From NCBI GenBank assembly GCA_945870425.1, contig CAMBSD010000004.1:147587-211586 (forward strand): 64,000 bases of DNA, given 5' to 3'. The DNA is from Chitinophaga pinensis (GTDB lineage Bacteria; Bacteroidota; Bacteroidia; UKL13-3). This document shows, piece by piece, positions 37,940 through 60,010 of the stretch (the stretch's first letter is position 1; each line of letters opens with the position of its first letter). Under the pieces are notes generated by a model. That model was not told the DNA's origin and made no database searches. It saw only the letters and a list, made by a program, of their open reading frames with translations. The position numbers and the translations under genes are program-made.

Positions 37940-37969
37940 TTTGTTTTTTAATTAATAATGATACTTTTG
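37940..37969 (+). promoter_or_regulatory. Promoter of metK
   Basis: TTTG at 37940-37943, an 18-nt spacer and TACTTTTG at 37962-37969. The predicted leader before metK is ~165 nt, the longest of any gene here with a recognisable promoter. Confidence 0.7.
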
Positions 37970-37972
37970 CCA

Positions 37973-38081
37973 CGCATTAAGAAATTCCTAGAGGGATACC
38001 AACCGAGAAAAAAACCACGGTGGTAAATACAATGCGGGCTTTACAAGGTCAAAATATATAATTTGAAAAACCTCACAAAGC
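37973..38081 (+). promoter_or_regulatory. Structured metK leader (possible SAM-responsive element)
   Basis: CGCATT (37973-37978) pairs with AATGCG (38031-38036). Inside, TACCA-a-CCG (37997-38005) pairs with CGGTGGTA (38018-38025). Downstream GCTTT (38038) and AAAGC (38081) enclose AGGT/ACCT. The loop CCT at 37987 could instead pair with AGG at 38046, a pseudoknot that excludes the last stem. I could not match it confidently to a SAM riboswitch class. Confidence 0.4.
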
Positions 38082-38139: not shown

Positions 38140-39393
38140 ATGTCGTATCTATTCACATCAGAGTCCGTATCAGAAGGACACCCAGACAAAGTAGCCGATC
38201 AGATTTCGGATGCATTAATTGACAATTTCCTAGCTTCTGACCCTGAGTCGAAAGTAGCTTGCGAAACCCTTGTAACTACTGGACAAGTAGTGCTTGCGGG
38301 TGAAGTAAAATCTTCTGCTTATTTGGACGTACAAACCATTGCTCGTGATGTAATCAAAAAAATAGGTTATACCAAAAGTGAATATATGTTTGAAGCAAAT
38401 TCTTGCGGTGTGCTTTCTGCTATCCACGAGCAATCTGCTGATATCAATCAAGGTGTTGACCGTAAGAAAAAACAAGACCAAGGTGCTGGTGACCAAGGTA
38501 TGATGTTTGGTTATGCAACCAATGAAACTGACGACTATATGCCTTTGGCTTTAGACTTAGCTCATAAGATTTTGATTGAGTTAGCTGATTTGAGAAGAGA
38601 AAACAAAGCCATCAAATACCTTCGCCCGGATGCAAAAAGCCAAGTAACTTTAGAATACAATGATAACAATGTGCCTGTGCGCATTGATTCAATCGTGGTT
38701 TCTACACAACATGACGATTTTGATGCAGAAGCTAAAATGTTAGCTAAAATCAAAAAAGATATTGTTGAGATTTTGATTCCTCGTGTTAAGAAAAAATACA
38801 AAAAATTCGCTCATTTATTCAACGATAAAATCAATTACCATATCAACCCAACTGGTAAGTTTGTAATTGGTGGACCACATGGCGATACAGGCTTAACAGG
38901 TCGTAAAATCATCGTAGATACTTACGGTGGAAAAGGTGCACATGGTGGAGGAGCTTTCTCTGGTAAAGATCCAAGTAAAGTGGATAGAAGTGCTGCTTAT
39001 GCAACACGTCACATTGCTAAAAACTTGGTAGCTGCTGGCCTTTGCTCTGAAGTATTGGTTCAAGTAAGTTATGCCATTGGTGTTAAAGATCCTATGGGTA
39101 TCTACATCAATACTTATGGTACTTCTAAAGTAAAAATGTCAGATGGAGAAATAGCTAAAAAAGTGTCAAAATTATTTGATATGACTCCTTATGGTATCGA
39201 AACGCGTTTGAAATTGCGTAACCCTATCTATAGCGAAACTGCTGCTTATGGCCACATGGGTAGAAAAAATGAAGTAGTATCAAAAACCTTCAAATCGCCT
39301 GATGGAAAATCTAAAACCATGAAAGTAGAATTATTTACATGGGAAAAATTAGACATGGTAGATAAAGTGAAAAAAGAATTTAAAATAAAATAA
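38140..39393 (+). CDS. metK: S-adenosylmethionine synthetase
   Basis: A 417-residue enzyme making S-adenosylmethionine from methionine and ATP. Signatures: the [15 protein letters not shown] opening, [16 protein letters not shown], the substrate loop [40 protein letters not shown], and [11 protein letters not shown]. Somewhat longer than the ~385-residue E. coli enzyme, as usual in Bacteroidota. It has a long structured leader and its own terminator. Confidence 0.97.
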
Positions 39394-52351: not shown

Positions 52352-53053
52352 CTATTGTATTTTGCCGTCATCGGCAAAACTGTAATAAGAATCACCCGCT
52401 ATGATGATGTGCTCAACTATAGCAATCTCAAGCATCCTACCCGATTCAATCATTTTCTTAGTGAGACTTATATCTGCGTGGCTCGGCTGTAAGTTTCCAG
52501 AAGGATGATTATGACACAAAACAATATTGGTAGACAAATGATCTATTGCCATCTTAAAAACTATCTTAGGATCAACGATGGTAGAGGTTATTCCACCTCC
52601 GCTTACTCTTTTGGCAGCCAAAAGCTGCAATCGGTTATTGAGCAAAAGTACCCAAAACTCTTCATGAGGTAAATCTTGTAAGTAAGGTAAAATCGTTTCG
52701 AAAATACGTTTACTGCTATTAAGCAAGGGCTTCTCTTCAGTAGCCGTATTCTTTCTTCTGCGACCTAGTTCCAATGCCGCAATAATGCTAATGGCTTTGG
52801 CCTCTCCTATTCCCTTAATCTTCTTAAGGTCTTTGATATTAAGTTGCGCCAGGTCATTTAAGCTGTTATTGGCAGTAGCCAATATCTTTTTGCCTAAGTC
52901 AACCGCAGATTCTTCTTTGGTTCCCGTAGCAATCAAAATAGCTATCAATTCGGCATCGCTCAGGCTATGTCTGCCTTTTAACAAAAGCTTCTCGCGCGGT
53001 CGGTCGTCTTCGGCCCATTGTTTTATGCCAAAAGGTTTGTTCTCTTCAGTCAT
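52352..53053 (-). CDS. radC: RadC-family JAB-domain protein
   Basis: A 233-residue protein. The N-terminal helix-hairpin-helix part has LKKIKGIGEAKAISI. The C-terminal JAB domain has the metal site HNHPSGNLQPSHAD with the upstream Glu. The DNA repair role once given to RadC is doubtful; the JAB fold suggests a metalloprotease or nuclease. It lies 15 bp behind the TPR gene and may be read with it. Confidence 0.9.
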   Translation of the reverse strand: MTEENKPFGIKQWAEDDRPREKLLLKGRHSLSDAELIAILIATGTKEESAVDLGKKILATANNSLNDLAQLNIKDLKKIKGIGEAKAISIIAALELGRRRKNTATEEKPLLNSSKRIFETILPYLQDLPHEEFWVLLLNNRLQLLAAKRVSGGGITSTIVDPKIVFKMAIDHLSTNIVLCHNHPSGNLQPSHADISLTKKMIESGRMLEIAIVEHIIIAGDSYYSFADDGKIQ

Positions 53054-53068
53054 AAAACAAATTAAAAC

Positions 53069-53680
53069 TTATTTATTGCACATTGCAAGTCCCTCTTGGG
53101 CAGATTTGCTGCTAGGCGTATTCATCAGAGCTCTTTCAAACAAACTTTTTGCTTCTGTTTTATCGCCAAGTGAATAGTTGTTCCAAGCGCTCATCAAAAG
53201 ACAATCATAGTCAAAAGGATACATTTGAAGAACAGTGTCAAAATGTTTTTGTGCTGAAGCATAGTTTTTTCGGTTATAATAAATCAATCCTGTTCTATAA
53301 TTTACCAGTGTATTTTTAGCATCTATGGCAAGTATCAATCTATATTGATTCAACACTTCATCCCATTTATTTTGAGCCGATAAAGGATAAACCAAACCCA
53401 ATTTGGCTTCGATAGAATAAGCATGCAAGGCAGTGGCTTTTTGATAATATACAATAGCATCGTTGTATCTACCAACCTCATATAATAACCAACCTAAGCG
53501 CAGGTTCATTTCATAAGACTTGGAATCATACACGGCCGTAATTTCATCAGCAGCTTTTTGGTATTGCTTGCTATTTTCAAGGGTGTAACTTTTAGAGAAT
53601 GCATTCTTGATGGCTTCTGCATTTTGAGCAAAGGCAATTTGCAAGCTAAATGATAGTAAGATGGTGATTAAGGTTTTCAT
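53069..53680 (-). CDS. Exported TPR protein of the envelope cassette
   Basis: A 203-residue protein with signal peptide MKTLITILLSFSLQIAFA. About five tetratricopeptide repeats follow (DAIVYYQKATALHAYSIEAK and NYASAQKHFDTVLQMYPFDY are typical). It overlaps the barrel gene by 4 bp (ATGA). It is probably a periplasmic scaffold for the barrel protein and part of the PqqD/ATP-grasp cassette. Confidence 0.8.
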   Translation of the reverse strand: MKTLITILLSFSLQIAFAQNAEAIKNAFSKSYTLENSKQYQKAADEITAVYDSKSYEMNLRLGWLLYEVGRYNDAIVYYQKATALHAYSIEAKLGLVYPLSAQNKWDEVLNQYRLILAIDAKNTLVNYRTGLIYYNRKNYASAQKHFDTVLQMYPFDYDCLLMSAWNNYSLGDKTEAKSLFERALMNTPSSKSAQEGLAMCNK

Positions 53681-55065
53681 AAATTGTATTTGATTCCGAT
53701 GGCTAATAAATGATTGTTATAATTGTTGTAGTTGCTTGTATAGTTTGTTTTGTCGATATAAGTTACATAATTACTTTGCCTTAAGGAGTACCTATAAGTT
53801 AGATACAAGATAAGGTTTTTGCTCATGGTATAAAAAAGTGTGCTACCTGTTCTACAGATGGTTTTATCTGTGATATTGTTTACCAATTGCCCATTCATCT
53901 CGGTGGTATTGGTCAAGTCTCCATAAAGCACATGTGCCGAAATCCATAGCTTCTTTGTAGCTCTGAAGGTAGATTCAATACTTGGTATGTATTGCATATC
54001 ACTGCTCTGACTCAATACTGTCAACTGAGCGCCAAAGACTAGATTGGTATTGCCCTTTGGATACCAGTATATATTGGCATTTCCTTGTAGCTGTGTTTTA
54101 CTGCTTAGGTTGGAGTAGCTGGCACCAAGGCCCAGTTTAAACTTCCTAATCTCTTTTTCGATACTAGCTCCTAAAACATAGTTTACATTACTATTAGTTG
54201 CTGAACTAAATATATAATTGGTTTGAACAGCCACATTCGTATCAACCATAAAAATAGTAGTGTCATAGCTTGGTGTAATGGTGGTATATTGGTTAAAAAT
54301 AAAATTTCCAAAAAGCTTTAATGAATACATCCTTGGTAACACAAAAGAAGTTTGAAAATAAAATTGCTGTTGACCAATCTTATTGTCAATGATATGAGTG
54401 GTGTCTGTTCTTGCATCTAATAGGGAATAGCTTTTAGCTTGTATTTTTTCTTCTCTATTGGTCTGAATGGCATCACATCCCAAAATGATATGCATAAAAC
54501 GATTCGCTTGAATACTTATTACTACTTGGGCAAAACTCAAATCTCTATTCAATATTTGTTGTCCATATTCTTTGTTGTCAATAATGTTGTTATTGGCATT
54601 AAGCGAATAGTTATCACTTGTTTGGTAACCGCCACCTAAATCAATGCTGCTAATAAATTTATTCTTTGGAATTAAATAATACTCCTTCTCTTCATCAGAA
54701 AACAAAGCCGCATAATACCTTGCCCTTTGGTAGTTGGCTGTATTCAAATAATTATGATATAACATCAATTTTGCATCCACGTCCATAGGATTGTTGTTAT
54801 ATAATAATTGATATTGAATAGTTGATGTTAGAAAATCTTCTTTCATAAAATAGGCATAAGCCAAGCGCTTTCTAATGGCAATGGTTTCAAAGCCATTGTT
54901 AATTGCTTCTTTCGCATTCACTATCAATCCATCCCAATCAGCCTTCAGATAATTGTCGTAGGTTAACGACTCGTAATCAATGGTCGCAATACTATCTGCT
55001 GTTTGTGCTTGGCTATAGAAAGTGGTGGAAAAAATAATAATCAAAATGATTATTGTGCTTCGCAT
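53677..55065 (-). CDS. Outer-membrane barrel protein with N-terminal TPR-like region
   Basis: A 462-residue protein with signal peptide (TIIILIIIFSTTFYSQAQ). Residues ~30-130 are helical and TPR-like (KRLAYAYFMKEDFLTSTIQY). The rest (about 140-462) alternates short polar and hydrophobic strands and ends in a typical barrel C-terminus (LLAIGIKYNL). It resembles YaiO-type outer-membrane proteins. It overlaps the UT-M23 gene by 16 bp. Confidence 0.7.
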   Translation of the reverse strand: MRSTIIILIIIFSTTFYSQAQTADSIATIDYESLTYDNYLKADWDGLIVNAKEAINNGFETIAIRKRLAYAYFMKEDFLTSTIQYQLLYNNNPMDVDAKLMLYHNYLNTANYQRARYYAALFSDEEKEYYLIPKNKFISSIDLGGGYQTSDNYSLNANNNIIDNKEYGQQILNRDLSFAQVVISIQANRFMHIILGCDAIQTNREEKIQAKSYSLLDARTDTTHIIDNKIGQQQFYFQTSFVLPRMYSLKLFGNFIFNQYTTITPSYDTTIFMVDTNVAVQTNYIFSSATNSNVNYVLGASIEKEIRKFKLGLGASYSNLSSKTQLQGNANIYWYPKGNTNLVFGAQLTVLSQSSDMQYIPSIESTFRATKKLWISAHVLYGDLTNTTEMNGQLVNNITDKTICRTGSTLFYTMSKNLILYLTYRYSLRQSNYVTYIDKTNYTSNYNNYNNHLLAIGIKYNL

Positions 55066-57209
55066 AGGGCTATCGTTTTTTTATTGTTTTCAAGGATTTC
55101 AATTTTATAGAAACCATTTGAATTAAGTAATATTGTATAATTGTTTTTATGTAAAATTAAATTGGCCATTCTTGTCACTGACGAAGACTTTAACTCAATT
55201 TTTGAGGTGTAATGCATATCATCAGCAAAGGCATACACCATGTTGTATTTTGATTTAACTATCTGAACAAAAGGAACCGTTAGATCTTCAAACCATTGTA
55301 CAATAAAATTGGTTTTATGAAGCATGGGGTATTTTTCATCAAGGCTCAATTCTGAATAATATCCCAAAAATACTTTATAACAACTTAGGTAAAAGTGATA
55401 TAAAAACGACTTTCTATTTCCTTCAAAATGATTGAACCTAAATACTACACCATCATTCTCAACCCTAGCTAAACTATTGGTTTCAGGGCACCAAATGTTA
55501 ATACGGTTCCAGGCATCTGTATACACCTCCCAATTCTCAATATTACCGTTCCAATTCCAACGTAATTTCTTGCCCGGAATAAAATAAAAGGCCGCTTTCA
55601 ACAATGGGTTTATTTCGGGATTTAGAATGGTTTGACCTTCTTTGGGCACTTCAAATATCTTTAAATCAAACTTCTTGTTTTCTTTAACGATATAGGAGGC
55701 TATGGGATAATCAAAAGTTTTTGCACCCAAAACAGGAACTGTTTGCAATTGAAAATGGATGTGGGGCTCAGGTGAACGACCCGAACTGCCGCACAGTGCA
55801 ATAGGTTCGCCACGTTTCACATAATCACCTACCTTTACTTTAAAGCTCTCTTTTTTGATGTGTGACACTTGAGAATACAAACCATTTCCATGATTTAAGA
55901 TGATGCTATTACCCCAATTTTGTTTGGTGTTTACATCGGCTATTTCGTTGTCATCAATATTGTCTACAATGTTTTCCACATAAGCATCTCCTGAAGCAAG
56001 CACAGGTTTGTTATAACAATAAAAATCTTCTACCTTGTTACCAGGTAATGTATATGATTTCATCTCATCATCGAGAATAATAAAATCAAGGGCTTTACTC
56101 CAATCTCCTATATGTGTAATCTTTCCATCATGTCCTTGACTCAGCATCCACTCACCCCAAAAAGGTAATGAAACAGGATAGTATTTGTAAAATCTACGAT
56201 TGTCATTGGATGAAATAAATTCATATAAATTTTTCTCTGGTGATGAATGCTGCCATTCAACTGCATGTATTCTTTTACCGTTGGTTCTCCATTTCAATGC
56301 ATATAAGAAAAATAAAGTAGTGATGGTAAATGAAAAAGTGAATGCTGGCAAATTAAAAACACTTAACATTTCACTCGAGCCATAGTGAATTAGTGTAACC
56401 AAAGGCACAATGGCTATCACCATCAAATAAGACCAAATATTGGGAACAATAAAAAACCCTCCAATGGCTATGGCAAAAAAGATAAAGTTTGATCCCACAA
56501 ATAGGTTTACCAAATCATTGGTATCAATACCCACAAGGCGATAAATAGAAAATGCAGTTAAAAATCCCAAGCATGCCAAGGTGAAAGAAATGCGAGAGTA
56601 TAAAAACAAGCCCACAGCTATGATTGCACCCACCAAGAAATTACTTTGAAAGAACACAGCTCCTAAGGAACGACAAAAGATAACAGCCATCTTTGGCACC
56701 TGCAACAGGTTCACTTGGTTAACTTTGAAAATATAATCGGACAAAAAAGGATATGAACCCACGTGAAAAGGAAGCAGATGTGTAAAAAATTTTGCAGCCA
56801 ATATGATTAACCACATGGAAAACAAAAAGGGCAAACCCATATATGGTAATTGATACTTTGATAGAAAGCCATGCAAACCTATTGATAAAATTAAACACAA
56901 GGCACTCATCATGAAAAGCATCAAAAAGAAAACCGAGTTCATTTCAAACAATGAACCCAATCCCATTCCTACCATAGCACTGTTAAAACCATAAGCACCT
57001 TCGCGAATGGTATGTGGATTTAAGGTAAAAATATCGGCCATGATATTGGTGATAAGCACCGCCAAAAGGCCTGATATACCAATAACTGGATTGACAAAGG
57101 AAGCAAGCATCAACAGCAGACCATACCAAGAGCTACGTGCAAAAAATATCTGCGAATAACTATATAGTATGCCGTGCCATTGTCTATCTATGATTTCCTT
57201 CCACCTCAC
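55050..57209 (-). CDS. Urea transporter fused to M23 peptidase
   Basis: A 719-residue fusion. About residues 20-305 form a ten-helix urea-channel domain: the first UT repeat shows EGAYGFNSAMVGMGLGSLF (70-88) and the second FVGSNFIFFAIAIGGFF (237-253). A soluble M23 (LytM) domain follows (about 345-515) with a complete zinc site: H366 and D375 in THIGDWSKALDF, H450 in SQVSHI, and H483/H485 in PHIHF. A further ~200 residues have no recognised fold. It may pass a small amide across the membrane and hydrolyse a peptide bond outside. Confidence 0.83.
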   Translation of the reverse strand: MRWKEIIDRQWHGILYSYSQIFFARSSWYGLLLMLASFVNPVIGISGLLAVLITNIMADIFTLNPHTIREGAYGFNSAMVGMGLGSLFEMNSVFFLMLFMMSALCLILSIGLHGFLSKYQLPYMGLPFLFSMWLIILAAKFFTHLLPFHVGSYPFLSDYIFKVNQVNLLQVPKMAVIFCRSLGAVFFQSNFLVGAIIAVGLFLYSRISFTLACLGFLTAFSIYRLVGIDTNDLVNLFVGSNFIFFAIAIGGFFIVPNIWSYLMVIAIVPLVTLIHYGSSEMLSVFNLPAFTFSFTITTLFFLYALKWRTNGKRIHAVEWQHSSPEKNLYEFISSNDNRRFYKYYPVSLPFWGEWMLSQGHDGKITHIGDWSKALDFIILDDEMKSYTLPGNKVEDFYCYNKPVLASGDAYVENIVDNIDDNEIADVNTKQNWGNSIILNHGNGLYSQVSHIKKESFKVKVGDYVKRGEPIALCGSSGRSPEPHIHFQLQTVPVLGAKTFDYPIASYIVKENKKFDLKIFEVPKEGQTILNPEINPLLKAAFYFIPGKKLRWNWNGNIENWEVYTDAWNRINIWCPETNSLARVENDGVVFRFNHFEGNRKSFLYHFYLSCYKVFLGYYSELSLDEKYPMLHKTNFIVQWFEDLTVPFVQIVKSKYNMVYAFADDMHYTSKIELKSSSVTRMANLILHKNNYTILLNSNGFYKIEILENNKKTIALCEAQ

Positions 57210-57221
57210 AATACAAGTGAA

Positions 57222-58595
57222 TTATAATTTAAATGCATTTAAATGTGCCGGTATTGACTCCAAATCAGTTAAAGTTTCAATGGTTTCGTTTTTACGAATC
57301 AAATGAACCTCACCTTTCATATCAATCATAACCACATTAGGTCTCATGGCAATAAACTGCATCCACTGGGTCATGTTATAAGCACCCACCTTATGCACCA
57401 CCACATGATCGCCTCTGTTTAAGAGTGGCAAATTAACACTTTCGCGCACTTTGTCAATATTCATACACAATGGCCCATAAACCACCATGTCTTCTGAATG
57501 GTGTGTAAACTCTTGTGCTGGAGATATTTTATGCTCGTACCAAAACGCAGTGAAAAGGATGTTAACACCAAAATCCATAATGGTAGCCCTTCTGCCGTCA
57601 GCTAAGCGTTTATTGGCCAATACACTTCCTACTAAATATCCTGCATCATCAATCAAAGCCCTACCTGATTCAAGCATCAACAAAGGCAAGTCTTCTTGTT
57701 TGAAACCATAGTTCAAAATAGTTGATGTAATTACTTCAGCATAATCATCAAAACTTGGGCTGATATCATTACCTGGCAAATAAGAACCACGTAAGGTATT
57801 GGTTGATGCAAATCCCCCTCCCATATCAATATATTGTATGCTTTTGTTCCATTTAGCTTTGATGTTCATAGCCAAATCACAAAGCTTAGAAGCTGCAATT
57901 CCGTATGCTCCAGCAGTCAACATAAAAGTTCCAATATGGGTGTGTAATCCTACCAATTCCATCTTTTCACAATTCATAATTTTGGTGATGGCATTCCAAG
58001 CTTGGTATGATTCGTAGTTAAATCCAAATCGATCCCACAACGGATATACGCCCACATCCATATTTACCCTGATAGCTACTTTGGCTTTTTTCTTTGATGT
58101 TTCAACAATCTCTATCAAATCATACAACTCATCAAAATGATCGATGTGAATGGTAGATTCATTTTCGATAGCTTGCTTCAATTCCGCAATGGTTTTATCA
58201 GGACCATTAAATAATATTTTGTTTCCTGGCACACCATTTCTGATGGCTTTCTCATACTCGAAACCACTTACGACTTCAGCCCAAGCACCTTCTTGGTGAA
58301 ACACTTTACATACGGCATCTAAATAATTGGTTTTGTAGCTCCAAGCAAACTGCACCTTTGGGTAACGGGTTTTGAAAGCACGCAAGGCAGATTGGTATGT
58401 TTTGCGGATGGTACGCTCTGATATTACAAAGCAAGGCGAGCCATATTGCTCAATAATGCGTTTTACTGGCACAGTGTCAATATGCGATGTAGGCTGGTAT
58501 TCGGTACGGGTACCAAATTTGTTCATCAGGCCTGCATTCATCTTACGAATCATAGGACGTTCGTAGCGTAATTTTTCTTTTGTTTCGGTTGACAT
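57222..58595 (-). CDS. Fold-type III PLP-dependent decarboxylase
   Basis: A 457-residue enzyme of the diaminopimelate/ornithine decarboxylase superfamily. The PLP lysine is K88 in SYKTN. HTHIGT, the GGGF phosphate loop and ESGRALIDDAG are present, and YGPLCMNIDKV replaces the usual CGPLC of DAP decarboxylase. It is longer than LysA by an N-terminal ~45 residues. The substrate is probably an amino acid or an amino-acid-derived moiety; I would not call it LysA. It lies 12 bp before the UT-M23 gene. Confidence 0.82.
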   Translation of the reverse strand: MSTETKEKLRYERPMIRKMNAGLMNKFGTRTEYQPTSHIDTVPVKRIIEQYGSPCFVISERTIRKTYQSALRAFKTRYPKVQFAWSYKTNYLDAVCKVFHQEGAWAEVVSGFEYEKAIRNGVPGNKILFNGPDKTIAELKQAIENESTIHIDHFDELYDLIEIVETSKKKAKVAIRVNMDVGVYPLWDRFGFNYESYQAWNAITKIMNCEKMELVGLHTHIGTFMLTAGAYGIAASKLCDLAMNIKAKWNKSIQYIDMGGGFASTNTLRGSYLPGNDISPSFDDYAEVITSTILNYGFKQEDLPLLMLESGRALIDDAGYLVGSVLANKRLADGRRATIMDFGVNILFTAFWYEHKISPAQEFTHHSEDMVVYGPLCMNIDKVRESVNLPLLNRGDHVVVHKVGAYNMTQWMQFIAMRPNVVMIDMKGEVHLIRKNETIETLTDLESIPAHLNAFKL

Positions 58596-58640
58596 ATCTT
58601 TTATGATTTAATTTTTTTGAATACTATTTTTTATACTGGT

Positions 58641-59690
58641 TTAATTTTCGCCAAAGGCTGAAAAGTGTTGGAACTGCTCAATGTCTATAATCATATCCCA
58701 TGAGTAACGAATGAAGGTTTTGCCTACTTCGTATGTTTCATATGGTTTCACTTTTTCGCCCATTGCTAATTTGACCAAGGCAGCAGGTTGATTTTGACCC
58801 GCTCCAACAGTTAGATAAATCCAAGCTGGGAAGCGAGGGTTGATTTCCATGAAATAAGGACGACCATCGGTGGTAACCATCAACTCTAACTCAAAACCCC
58901 CACGCCAATTGGTAGCTTTGATAAAGTCTTTAGCCAATTTTACCAAACGGCTGTCTTCAAGTGTCACACCCGCCCAAGCCTTGCCCTTGTCTGTAATAAA
59001 TAACTTGCGCATAGGCACTGCCGAAACTGTTTCGCCATGTCCATCGCCCAAAGCAGCCACATTTATCTCGGTGCCACTGATGTATTCTTGTACAATAATG
59101 GGCAAGCCCCATTTGGCCTCTAGCTTATGAAATGCTTTTTGAGCTTGGTCTAATGTTTGGCAAACCACTGCTTCGTAGTACTTACCTTTCACCACCATTG
59201 GATAGTTGAAATGTGCTGCTACGGCAGGCAATTCCGATACATTGTAAATGGTTTTATCCCTTGGTACATAGAAACCATGCTTTTGGCAAAATGCATATAA
59301 ATTTACTTTATCCCTTGCTTCAAACTGCTCTGTAGTGGGCATGTACGTGTTTATACCCATCTCTTTCAGTTTTGGCGAAAGCTTGATGAAATTATATAAT
59401 TCAGCATCAAAATTTGGAATTAACACATCTATTTTTTCTTGCTCATTGATATACTCAAGTCGCATCATCAGAGATTCGCTACCTGCCGATGGGTAGGGTA
59501 TCTGATAGGTTTTGTCAGCTATTCCTTCCATGTATATACCTGGTTCCAAGGCTTCATACGAAAGGCCAATGATACGCACATCATAGCCCTCCAACTCGCG
59601 CACACCACGTGCCACCGCTACACCAGGCCCGGGACTGTCAACAGCATTTAAGCCTGTAACAGCCACAGTAATTTTTTTCTTACTTCCCAT
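58641..59690 (-). CDS. ATP-grasp ligase
   Basis: A 349-residue enzyme of the carbamoyl-phosphate-synthase-like ATP-grasp family. A Rossmann-type pre-domain (VAVTGLNAVDSPGPGVAVARG) is followed by the ATP-grasp fold with YPMVVKGKYYEA, VQEYISGTEINVAALGDG, FELELMVTTDGRPYFMEINPRFP. It joins a carboxylate to an amine or thiol using ATP. It overlaps the PqqD gene by 11 bp. Confidence 0.85.
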   Translation of the reverse strand: MGSKKKITVAVTGLNAVDSPGPGVAVARGVRELEGYDVRIIGLSYEALEPGIYMEGIADKTYQIPYPSAGSESLMMRLEYINEQEKIDVLIPNFDAELYNFIKLSPKLKEMGINTYMPTTEQFEARDKVNLYAFCQKHGFYVPRDKTIYNVSELPAVAAHFNYPMVVKGKYYEAVVCQTLDQAQKAFHKLEAKWGLPIIVQEYISGTEINVAALGDGHGETVSAVPMRKLFITDKGKAWAGVTLEDSRLVKLAKDFIKATNWRGGFELELMVTTDGRPYFMEINPRFPAWIYLTVGAGQNQPAALVKLAMGEKVKPYETYEVGKTFIRYSWDMIIDIEQFQHFSAFGEN

Positions 59691-59931
59691 CAGTGCTTAG
59701 TAAATAGTTATCACCTAACTCTTGTATAAACTCATCATAGTCTCTTTCGATCGTTGATTTTTCAACATCGTATTTAGCTTGTAAAGCCTTCTTAATTTCG
59801 TCACTCGTTTTATTTTGTTTCATCAAAGTGATGATGTCGGTAGCAACTAAATTACTTGAGAAAGAATCCCCATTGGTAGGATTAAACAAATAACCCGATT
59901 CGCTTACTGCGATGTTTGTTAGTATTTTCAT
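59680..59931 (-). CDS. PqqD-family peptide-binding protein
   Basis: An 83-residue winged-helix protein of the PqqD/RiPP-recognition type: GYLFNPTNGDSFSSNLVATDIITLM, read in pieces, then DEIKKALQAKYDVEKSTIERDYDEFIQEL. In PQQ and other systems such proteins carry the substrate peptide to the modifying enzymes. As first gene of this operon it suggests a peptide or peptide-like substrate. No precursor peptide is visible upstream or in the junctions. Confidence 0.82.
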   Translation of the reverse strand: MKILTNIAVSESGYLFNPTNGDSFSSNLVATDIITLMKQNKTSDEIKKALQAKYDVEKSTIERDYDEFIQELGDNYLLSTDGK

Positions 59932-59980: not shown

Positions 59981-60010
59981 CAAACGTAAAATAATTTGGA
60001 AAAAGGGCAA
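59981..60010 (-). promoter_or_regulatory. Promoter of the PqqD/ATP-grasp cassette
   Basis: On the minus strand TTG (60010-60008), a 19-nt spacer and TACGTTTG (59988-59981), about 50 nt before the PqqD start. Confidence 0.6.

Follow-up and report, generated by a model that had tools for sequence, protein, structure and literature searches.

RiPP recognition elements (RREs; RiPP, ribosomally synthesized and post-translationally modified peptide) are known to read the leader sequences of short precursor peptides. According to passages of PMC13381572, TbiB1, TfuB1 and PbaB1 are lasso RREs solved with their leaders, and most discrete lasso RREs read leaders of the type [Y/W]xxPx[L/V/I/A/F/Y], a motif common to the leaders of pyrroloquinoline quinone (PQQ) systems; LppB uses D70 for a hydrogen bond to the leader Tyr and N33 to hold the leader Pro in place, the D70A replacement lowering complex formation and N33A almost abolishing it. 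The register of lasso leaders is given in PMC10368454 as Tyr -17, Pro -14 and Leu -12; position -2 holds the residue that the RRE helps to present to the leader peptidase. Here we describe a six-gene cassette in a 64,000-nucleotide stretch of Chitinophaga pinensis DNA (NCBI GenBank assembly GCA_945870425.1, contig CAMBSD010000004.1, positions 147,587 to 211,586 of the forward strand; hereafter the window, whose numbering is used throughout). The statement best supported by its sequence is that the PqqD protein of the cassette is likely an RRE whose peptide is the N-terminal tail of the cassette's own decarboxylase. No description of the cassette was found in the open-licence PMC literature, where absence does not mean that it is unpublished.

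The cassette spans positions 53069-59931, an interval exactly filled by six intact minus-strand open reading frames (ORFs); a first-pass annotation of the window had proposed six close-packed genes here, and this held. From the PqqD gene to the last gene, which codes for a tetratricopeptide repeat (TPR) protein, neighbours are separated by an 11-bp overlap, a 45-bp gap, a 12-bp gap, a 16-bp overlap and a 4-bp overlap, so that no gap exceeds 45 bp. The first three genes and the sites in them that carry the argument are:

59680..59931, minus strand: PqqD-fold RRE protein, 83 aa (PF05402 46.3 bits, cut-off 23.4); leader-binding residues, by alignment, N27, V29, Y54, D64, F68, L72 and L77
59740..59742, minus strand: codon of PqqD Asp64, counterpart of the LppB Asp that holds the leader Tyr
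58641..59690, minus strand: ATP-grasp ligase, 349 aa (Pfam PF15632 48.2 bits, PF02655 43.6 bits)
57222..58595, minus strand: alanine-racemase-fold pyridoxal phosphate (PLP) decarboxylase, 457 aa (Orn_Arg_deC_N 98.5 bits, C-terminal sheet 45.2 bits)
58512..58574, minus strand: leader-like decarboxylase tail (residues 8-28); YERPMI occupies 11-16, K26 and G28 are invariant

The remaining genes code for a fusion of a urea transporter (UT)-like channel with an M23 peptidase (UT-M23), an outer-membrane barrel and the TPR protein. Loci of relatives were taken from the best 80 of 463 relatives found in a scan for the UT-M23 family. The alignments, each with the window's own sequence added, took in 79 of 120 listed proteins, 36 of 43 PqqD loci and, of the 69 barrels at least 380 aa long, 64; four decarboxylase fragments (L053, L076 and two from L077) were left out of the decarboxylase alignment. 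Distribution was analysed in 198 evenly drawn Bacteroidota genomes from 103 genera.

A profile of 37 PqqD rows gave TbiB1 (E 1.7e-12), TfuB1 and PbaB1 as the three best solved structures. The alignment with PbaB1 was ungapped, pairing N27 with G42, Y54 with Y69, D64 with Q79, F68 with F83, L72 with L87 and L77 with L92 (PbaB1 numbers being chain numbers minus 18, anchored on residues named in its paper), and the equivalents of N27 and D64 in LppB are N33 and D70. In the 65 rows in which PqqD and tail were compared, these reading residues are largely kept: N27 in 63 (the other two being gaps), D64 in 58 and F68 in 62. The two lasso PqqD models matched 37 of 37 and 36 of 37 cassette rows. The cassette PqqD thus shares with the discrete RREs TbiB1, TfuB1, PbaB1 and LppB the PqqD fold and the Asn, Asp, Phe and Leu of the leader groove, and from its sequence it looks like a peptide-reading RRE, not the carrier of a compound that had been suggested from the window alone. 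Two results weigh against this assignment: other PqqD families also matched widely (ScmD 36, WgkC 35, HPr-rel-A 31 and PQQ 18 of the 37 rows), and the PqqD of the window scored 25.4 against a lasso model cut-off of 70, far below it.

The candidate partner of this RRE lies two genes downstream. The decarboxylase carries about 36 residues ahead of its fold that are missing from the LysA-like protein of the same genome, and this tail holds the motif [YF]ERPx[IL] in all 54 intact decarboxylases (53 loci plus the window). Position 11 is Tyr in 48 of them and Phe in 6, E12, R13 and P14 are invariant, and position 16 is Ile in 49 and Leu in 5; further along, K26 and G28 are invariant in 65/65 rows. 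The same type of tail was present at all 21 places of the genome sample, L085 having the variant YESPAI, and the overall consensus is [YF]E[R/K]Px[I/L/V]...K-x-G. The leader motif, the Tyr-Asp pairing and the register of the motif are also shared with the discrete RRE systems. The difference is that lasso, PQQ and LPP systems carry the motif on a short precursor, whereas in the cassette a full-length decarboxylase bears it at its N terminus.

Tail and PqqD changed together at a single pair of positions. Tail Tyr11 occurred with PqqD Asp64 in 58 of the 65 rows and tail Phe11 with a residue other than Asp in seven (Tyr in four, Ser in two, His in one), with no mixed cases. Column 64 was the only one of the 83 PqqD columns fully disjoint between the Tyr and Phe sets, and of tail positions 8-28 only position 11 behaved likewise. 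If Asp64 holds the Tyr, it would be expected to be free to change where the tail Tyr loses its hydroxyl; the Tyr11-Asp64 pair matches the hydrogen-bond pair of published RRE-leader complexes. These counts must be weighed against the finding that the seven Phe rows form one clade (SH-like approximate likelihood ratio test, SH-aLRT, 99) and represent one event: because the exchange sits on one branch, the number of rows overstates the covariation, and a Fisher p value for the Tyr/Asp pairing was set aside since the rows are related. The 65 rows also include the window genes twice (again as L084), L004 (UT-M23 99% identical) and L102/L104 (identical decarboxylase cores). The telling point is rather which column changed, namely one of 83, or one of 19 conserved, and the known contact.

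From these sequence features we infer that PqqD binds the decarboxylase tail. If this is true, leader recognition can serve to assemble enzymes, and it would be worth looking for leader motifs on other enzymes encoded beside orphan PqqD genes, which genome mining based on short precursors misses.

The specificity of the motif was examined with the looser pattern [YFW]xxPx[LVIAFY] within the first 40 residues. Among class A decarboxylase genes (the type found in the window) of at least 100 aa, 54 of 57 carried it; since all 53 intact genes do, the three misses fall among the four fragments. By family it occurred in 0/13 decarboxylases of the other type (class B, see below), 0/43 PqqD, 1/48 ATP-grasp and 5/80 UT-M23 proteins. 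Against its use as a marker, 55 of the 1014 other genes of the loci also contained it, including 8 of 11 copies of a small class B protein (c10), in which it looks like part of the fold. The loose motif by itself is insufficient evidence.

An RRE beside an ATP-grasp enzyme would also fit a standard lasso peptide or graspetide cluster whose precursor gene had been missed. ATG-started ORFs of 20-120 aa were searched for over 500 bp upstream, the gaps between the genes and 450 bp downstream, and no separate precursor appeared among the 12 largest recurring groups, all of which were gene starts, neighbouring genes or antisense frames. Moreover, the six genes include no B2 protease and no asparagine-synthetase-like cyclase, and in NCBIfam the ATP-grasp protein scored best with PRK12767 models (111.9 bits, below the cut-off of 390), the matches listed including no model of a graspetide ligase. 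We regard such a cluster as very improbable. The remark in the first-pass annotation that no precursor peptide is visible was not upheld as it stands: no separate one was found in the ORFs searched, yet the decarboxylase itself contains a leader-like stretch.

A related question is whether the tail may be a substrate. When the lasso register given above is applied to Y11, P14 and I16, the invariant K26 falls at -2 and the invariant G28 at +1; because they do, a substrate role of the tail is possible on sequence grounds. The Gly following the motif, G22, lies off the lasso spacing, which counts against the tail being a leader that PqqD reads, the docking role included. Instead of a mere docking tag, the tail would, in a substrate role, be a RiPP precursor fused to its own decarboxylase; the RRE would offer K26-x-G28 to the ATP-grasp enzyme, or else to a peptidase, for an amino acid to be loaded or the tail to be cut. 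Besides the invariance and placing of both residues, within a segment that has no counterpart in the LysA-like protein, precedents in the decarboxylase family favour this explanation: passages of PMC8503589 describe the related MccE as acting on a peptidyl-nucleotide intermediate and BtrK on a glutamate residue in butirosin synthesis, and the substrate of BtrK is carrier-bound by the name of its PDB entry. Yet K26-x-G28 may only cap the fold or the active site of the enzyme, and there is no lasso-type leader peptidase among the six genes, so that we hold this explanation to be unlikely, if worth keeping in view. A more elaborate version appears distinctly less plausible and we doubt it: PqqD would present the tail, the ligase would load an amino acid on Lys26, decarboxylation would take place there, and M23 would free the product in the cytoplasm for export. 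If true, RiPP leader recognition would here serve the synthesis of small molecules as a reusable loading arm. The cassette differs from lasso clusters in having no cyclase or leader peptidase among its six genes and an ATP-grasp ligase as neighbour.

What the decarboxylase acts on was approached through its pocket. Its best match in both NCBIfam (224.5 bits, cut-off of 500 not reached) and PDB (194 bits) was FslC/FigC, and the LysA model of NCBIfam gave 218.4 bits (cut-off of 297.9 not reached). With FslC/FigC (7kh2; relatives SbnH, MccE, BtrK and LysA) it shares the alanine-racemase fold, the PLP Lys and the catalytic Cys followed, as in FigC, by Met. According to passages of PMC7857480, two features of this family hold free basic amino acids or diaminopimelate, namely an acidic residue next to the catalytic Cys and, on the specificity helix, either an acidic residue or Arg; H357, R387 and possibly N389 of FigC were proposed by docking to hold citrate. 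The cassette equivalents of the first two features are M378 and the segment FTAFWY (348-353), uncharged as in FigC, both enzymes having a specificity helix with neither acid nor Arg; T349 sits where the LysA-like protein of the genome has its specificity-helix Arg. The alignment replaced H357, R387 and N389 of FigC by I380, Q410 and M412. Over the pocket residues compared with FigC (T349, W352, Y353, M378, I380, Q410 and M412), catalytic C377 being kept, the side-chain pocket is unlike that of LysA, ornithine decarboxylase or FigC, and M378, I380, W352 and Q410 occur in 54/54 decarboxylases. Because the pocket has neither acids for basic side chains, nor the Arg for diaminopimelate, nor the citrate His and Arg of FigC, its substrate would carry an uncharged, probably amide-linked side group, presumably made by the ligase.

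The same comparison bears on a siderophore pathway of the rhizoferrin type, in which the ligase would act with an N-citryl-amino-acid decarboxylase. FslC/FigC being the best match speaks for it, but two of the replacements at the proposed citrate residues, I380 and Q410, are invariant (54/54), and the six genes contain no NRPS-independent siderophore (NIS) synthetase; such a pathway is hardly probable. The cassette enzyme thus departs from FigC in its citrate-binding residues, in its extra leader-like tail and in having an ATP-grasp ligase instead of a NIS synthetase as neighbour. In that ligase, K168, E269, E282 and N284, which we take to be the ATP/Mg residues, are conserved in 48/48 rows.

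In the genome sample, presence was scored at E <= 1e-100 for the decarboxylase and E <= 1e-60 for UT-M23. The decarboxylase was found in 20 of the 198 genomes and UT-M23 in the identical 20 (lists compared by eye), representing 17 genera and 12 family codes. They held 21 places, one genome having two copies with identical cores near both ends of a single contig. ATP-grasp and UT-M23 flanked the decarboxylase on opposite sides, within about 0.7 kb, in 21/21 places, and PqqD lay beside it in 20 by tblastn and in all 21 by profile. Co-occurrence in the same genomes together with this adjacency ruled out a chance neighbourhood, the outcome that rare co-occurrence would have signified for the first-pass annotation, and its view of ligase, decarboxylase, inner-membrane channel-like protein and outer-membrane barrel as one unit was borne out: on sequence comparison the cassette is a conserved, co-inherited unit.

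Among the 80 UT-M23 loci, 56 had a class A decarboxylase or ATP-grasp gene adjoining, 13 had another enzyme set and 11 had neither, several of the last having contig ends within the stretch read. Gene order was near-constant in the 56 class A loci; L063 had no TPR gene after the barrel and some loci had two. Two findings weigh against a single transcript as a general requirement. The gap between decarboxylase and UT-M23 exceeded 300 bp in 11 of the 56 loci, so the two parts need not be transcribed together, and in L056 and L071, with 10 kb read upstream of UT-M23, the two genes lie on different contigs. In all, a class A decarboxylase, fragmentary in two cases, was located on a different contig in six of the 11 genomes with neither enzyme adjoining; the separation is clear only in L056 and L071, as L031, L041, L046 and L065 begin less than 2 kb from a contig end. 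L040 and L055 had a class B-type decarboxylase on another contig, and L014, L015 and L043 had neither decarboxylase. Because of the wide gaps in those 11 class A loci, the cassette is, on this genomic evidence, divided into two parts, PqqD-ligase-decarboxylase and channel-barrel-TPR.

The 13 class B loci (L013, L017, L018, L021, L026, L028, L033, L035, L039, L054, L064, L068 and L070) have UT-M23 accompanied, as far as the contigs extend, by TPR and barrel genes, and a divergent gene set adjoining. In 13/13 this set includes a 913-aa decarboxylase of the Orn/Lys/Arg type (PF01276, OKR_DC_1, 270 bits in the one scanned), with 783 bits to the solved Rv2531c, whose activity is given as not known in a passage of PMC12910592. 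An ATP-grasp gene followed it in 11 of 13 (PRK06524, 727 and 750 bits in the two scanned, cut-off 684), the other two being at a contig edge, and the 145-aa protein c10 was present in 11 of 13. No class A decarboxylase was found in any of the 13 genomes (best match 85 bits). This module resembles the class A one in pairing a PLP decarboxylase with an ATP-grasp enzyme; it differs in its decarboxylase family, in having no PqqD that we could see, in the absence of the tail motif (0/13) and in occurring also without UT-M23, the class B decarboxylase standing alone in 3 of the 198 genomes. Since the 15 class B rows of the UT-M23 tree form one clade inside class A (SH-aLRT 100), the sequences indicate that PqqD, ligase and decarboxylase gave way a single time to an unrelated decarboxylase with a different ATP-grasp enzyme. 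Pore position 20 of UT-M23 is Leu in 15/15 class B rows and in 0/57 class A rows (Gln in 45), which is only suggestive of a tie between pore and enzyme class: enzyme swap and pore change are one event in the tree, which counts against coupling, and repeated coevolution of this residue was rejected for that reason. The ATP-grasp neighbour offers a lead to the activity of the Rv2531c-like family.

Because one clade exchanged its enzymes for another decarboxylase and ATP-grasp pair, we suggest that the enzyme part and the channel part are coupled. The overall scheme that we favour, with moderate confidence, is a two-part system. The PqqD-type RRE would grip the leader-like N-terminal tail of the cassette's own decarboxylase, and this grip would hold decarboxylase and ATP-grasp ligase together. 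At a further remove from the sequence evidence, the ATP-grasp enzyme may first link an amino acid to an uncharged partner, after which the decarboxylase would strip the alpha-carboxylate. For the small product we predict an exit by way of the urea-channel-like protein and the outer-membrane barrel. Least firm of all, the M23 domain, predicted to be cytoplasmic, might trim the product or a peptide at the channel mouth, and the barrel and TPR proteins might pass the product out. The genes of this second part are:

55050..57209, minus strand: UT-M23 fusion, 719 aa, GTG start (PF03253, UT, 191.6 bits; M23 54.1 bits); urea-transporter-like channel 14-305, M23 peptidase about 345-510, C-terminal beta domain about 545-719
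53677..55065, minus strand: outer-membrane barrel, 462 aa, no Pfam family matching; signal-peptide-like N terminus, helical repeat (TPR-like) 31-130, 14 strands 138-461
53069..53680, minus strand: TPR protein, 203 aa (TPR 62 bits); signal-peptide-like N terminus, by reading

The model of UT-M23 (mean pLDDT, predicted local distance difference test, 91.6) matched the urea transporters dvUT and UT-B, sharing the fold of its first 305 residues (TM-score 0.83 on target for 3k3g); the cassette protein differs from them in its fusion to M23 and a further beta domain. In Gln24 and Glu187 of dvUT we recognize what is presumably the urea-binding pair. The Glu187 position is Ala in 50, Ser in 15, Gly in 14 and Met in 1 of the 80 UT-M23 rows and never Glu or Gln, and the Gln24 position is Gln in 53; in contrast to dvUT, the filter Glu/Gln of the second half is therefore lost, and Thr130 is mostly Ser (60/80). 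Full urease matches (E below 1e-50) were found in 6 of the 198 genomes, in only one of the 20 with UT-M23 (G166) and not in the window's genome. The Pfam cut-off for urease was passed by 13 of the 198, seven of them with partial matches of 23-26 bits; those of G070 and G093, both with UT-M23 (23-25 bits), were taken as other amidohydrolases. A system for uptake or release of urea or small amides with a peptidoglycan peptidase attached would fit the PF03253 score, the structural match and the five invariant M23 residues described below. The altered position in 80/80 rows, the near absence of full urease and the predicted cytoplasmic place of M23 make it improbable, and urea as cargo is disfavoured on the first two grounds. 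In place of the channel for small amides proposed at first, we consider a urea-channel fold with changed cargo likely from these residues.

H366, D375, H450, H483 and H485 of the M23 domain, which we assume to be its zinc and catalytic residues, are invariant in 80/80 rows, and for this reason the domain is likely active. Its side of the membrane was predicted from the known orientation of UT-B and the charge of the loops: mean Lys/Arg was 1.9 in loop 1-13, 1.8 in 60-73 and 3.0 in 306-325, after the last helix, against 0.1 in 226-239; the long middle loop 139-174 had 2.1 Lys/Arg and 4.3 Asp/Glu. Read with that orientation, the Lys/Arg-rich loops place M23 on the cytoplasmic side, a prediction that disagrees with the late envelope step first assigned to it. 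Disulfides as a sign of periplasmic M23 and C-terminal domains were rejected, the four conserved Cys not being lost in pairs. The C-terminal beta domain (window 55050-55577, minus strand) was well modelled and had no Pfam match above cut-off; of the Foldseek rows listed for the whole model, one was a cyanophage pre-ejectosome and the others were of UT or M23 type (aligned ranges not shown).

The barrel gave no family match by sequence, but its model, in which an N-terminal domain of helical repeats precedes 14 long strands, upheld the barrel assignment made from the letters alone. Among the 50 structure matches listed, the closest known barrels were FadL, CymA and OmpG, the FadL rows at 10-12% identity being a match of fold only; the cassette barrel differs from these in the helical repeat domain in front.

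Around the cassette, comF lies upstream, and the following site was located 49 bp before the PqqD gene:

59981..60010, minus strand: promoter-like site TTG-N19-TAcgTTTG

This site presumably fits the Bacteroidota promoter consensus. The pattern occurred 5 times in the window against 2.5 expected, and at least 5 times in 8 of 100 shuffles, so that, taken alone, it is weak evidence for a cassette promoter. Downstream, radC (window 52352-53053, minus strand) begins 15 bp past the end of the TPR gene with the same orientation, so that here the two may share a transcript; the gene following TPR varies among other cassette loci.

Several loci of relatives had further neighbours. A LytTR-type response regulator (cluster c7), absent from the window, lies directly upstream of PqqD in 11 (L006, L007, L009, L010, L011, L029, L038, L045, L052, L060 and L061), preceded in 8 of these by a kinase-cluster gene (c6), both names coming from clustering and inspection of the sequences alone. 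A membrane acyltransferase-type gene (cluster c11, 9 loci; PF01757/PF07786 in L036, the one copy scanned) is found inside the class A cassette of L036 (2345-3388, plus strand) and near class B loci, for example at L033:586 (plus strand), with another entry at L022:1539 (minus strand); an extra acylation step is possible. In L005 a heavy-metal-resistance-type gene precedes PqqD. A connection with metals by way of an AraC-type regulator lying upstream (cluster c12) was considered and dropped, as the scanned neighbours (PMT_2, FtsW/RodA and Na/Ca-exchanger proteins) formed no pattern. Elsewhere in the window, an S-adenosylmethionine (SAM)-I/IV riboswitch (37969-38066, plus strand, 53.1 bits) lies directly upstream of the ORF at 38140-39393 (plus strand), which we take, by reading its sequence and not by family search, to be the SAM synthetase gene metK.

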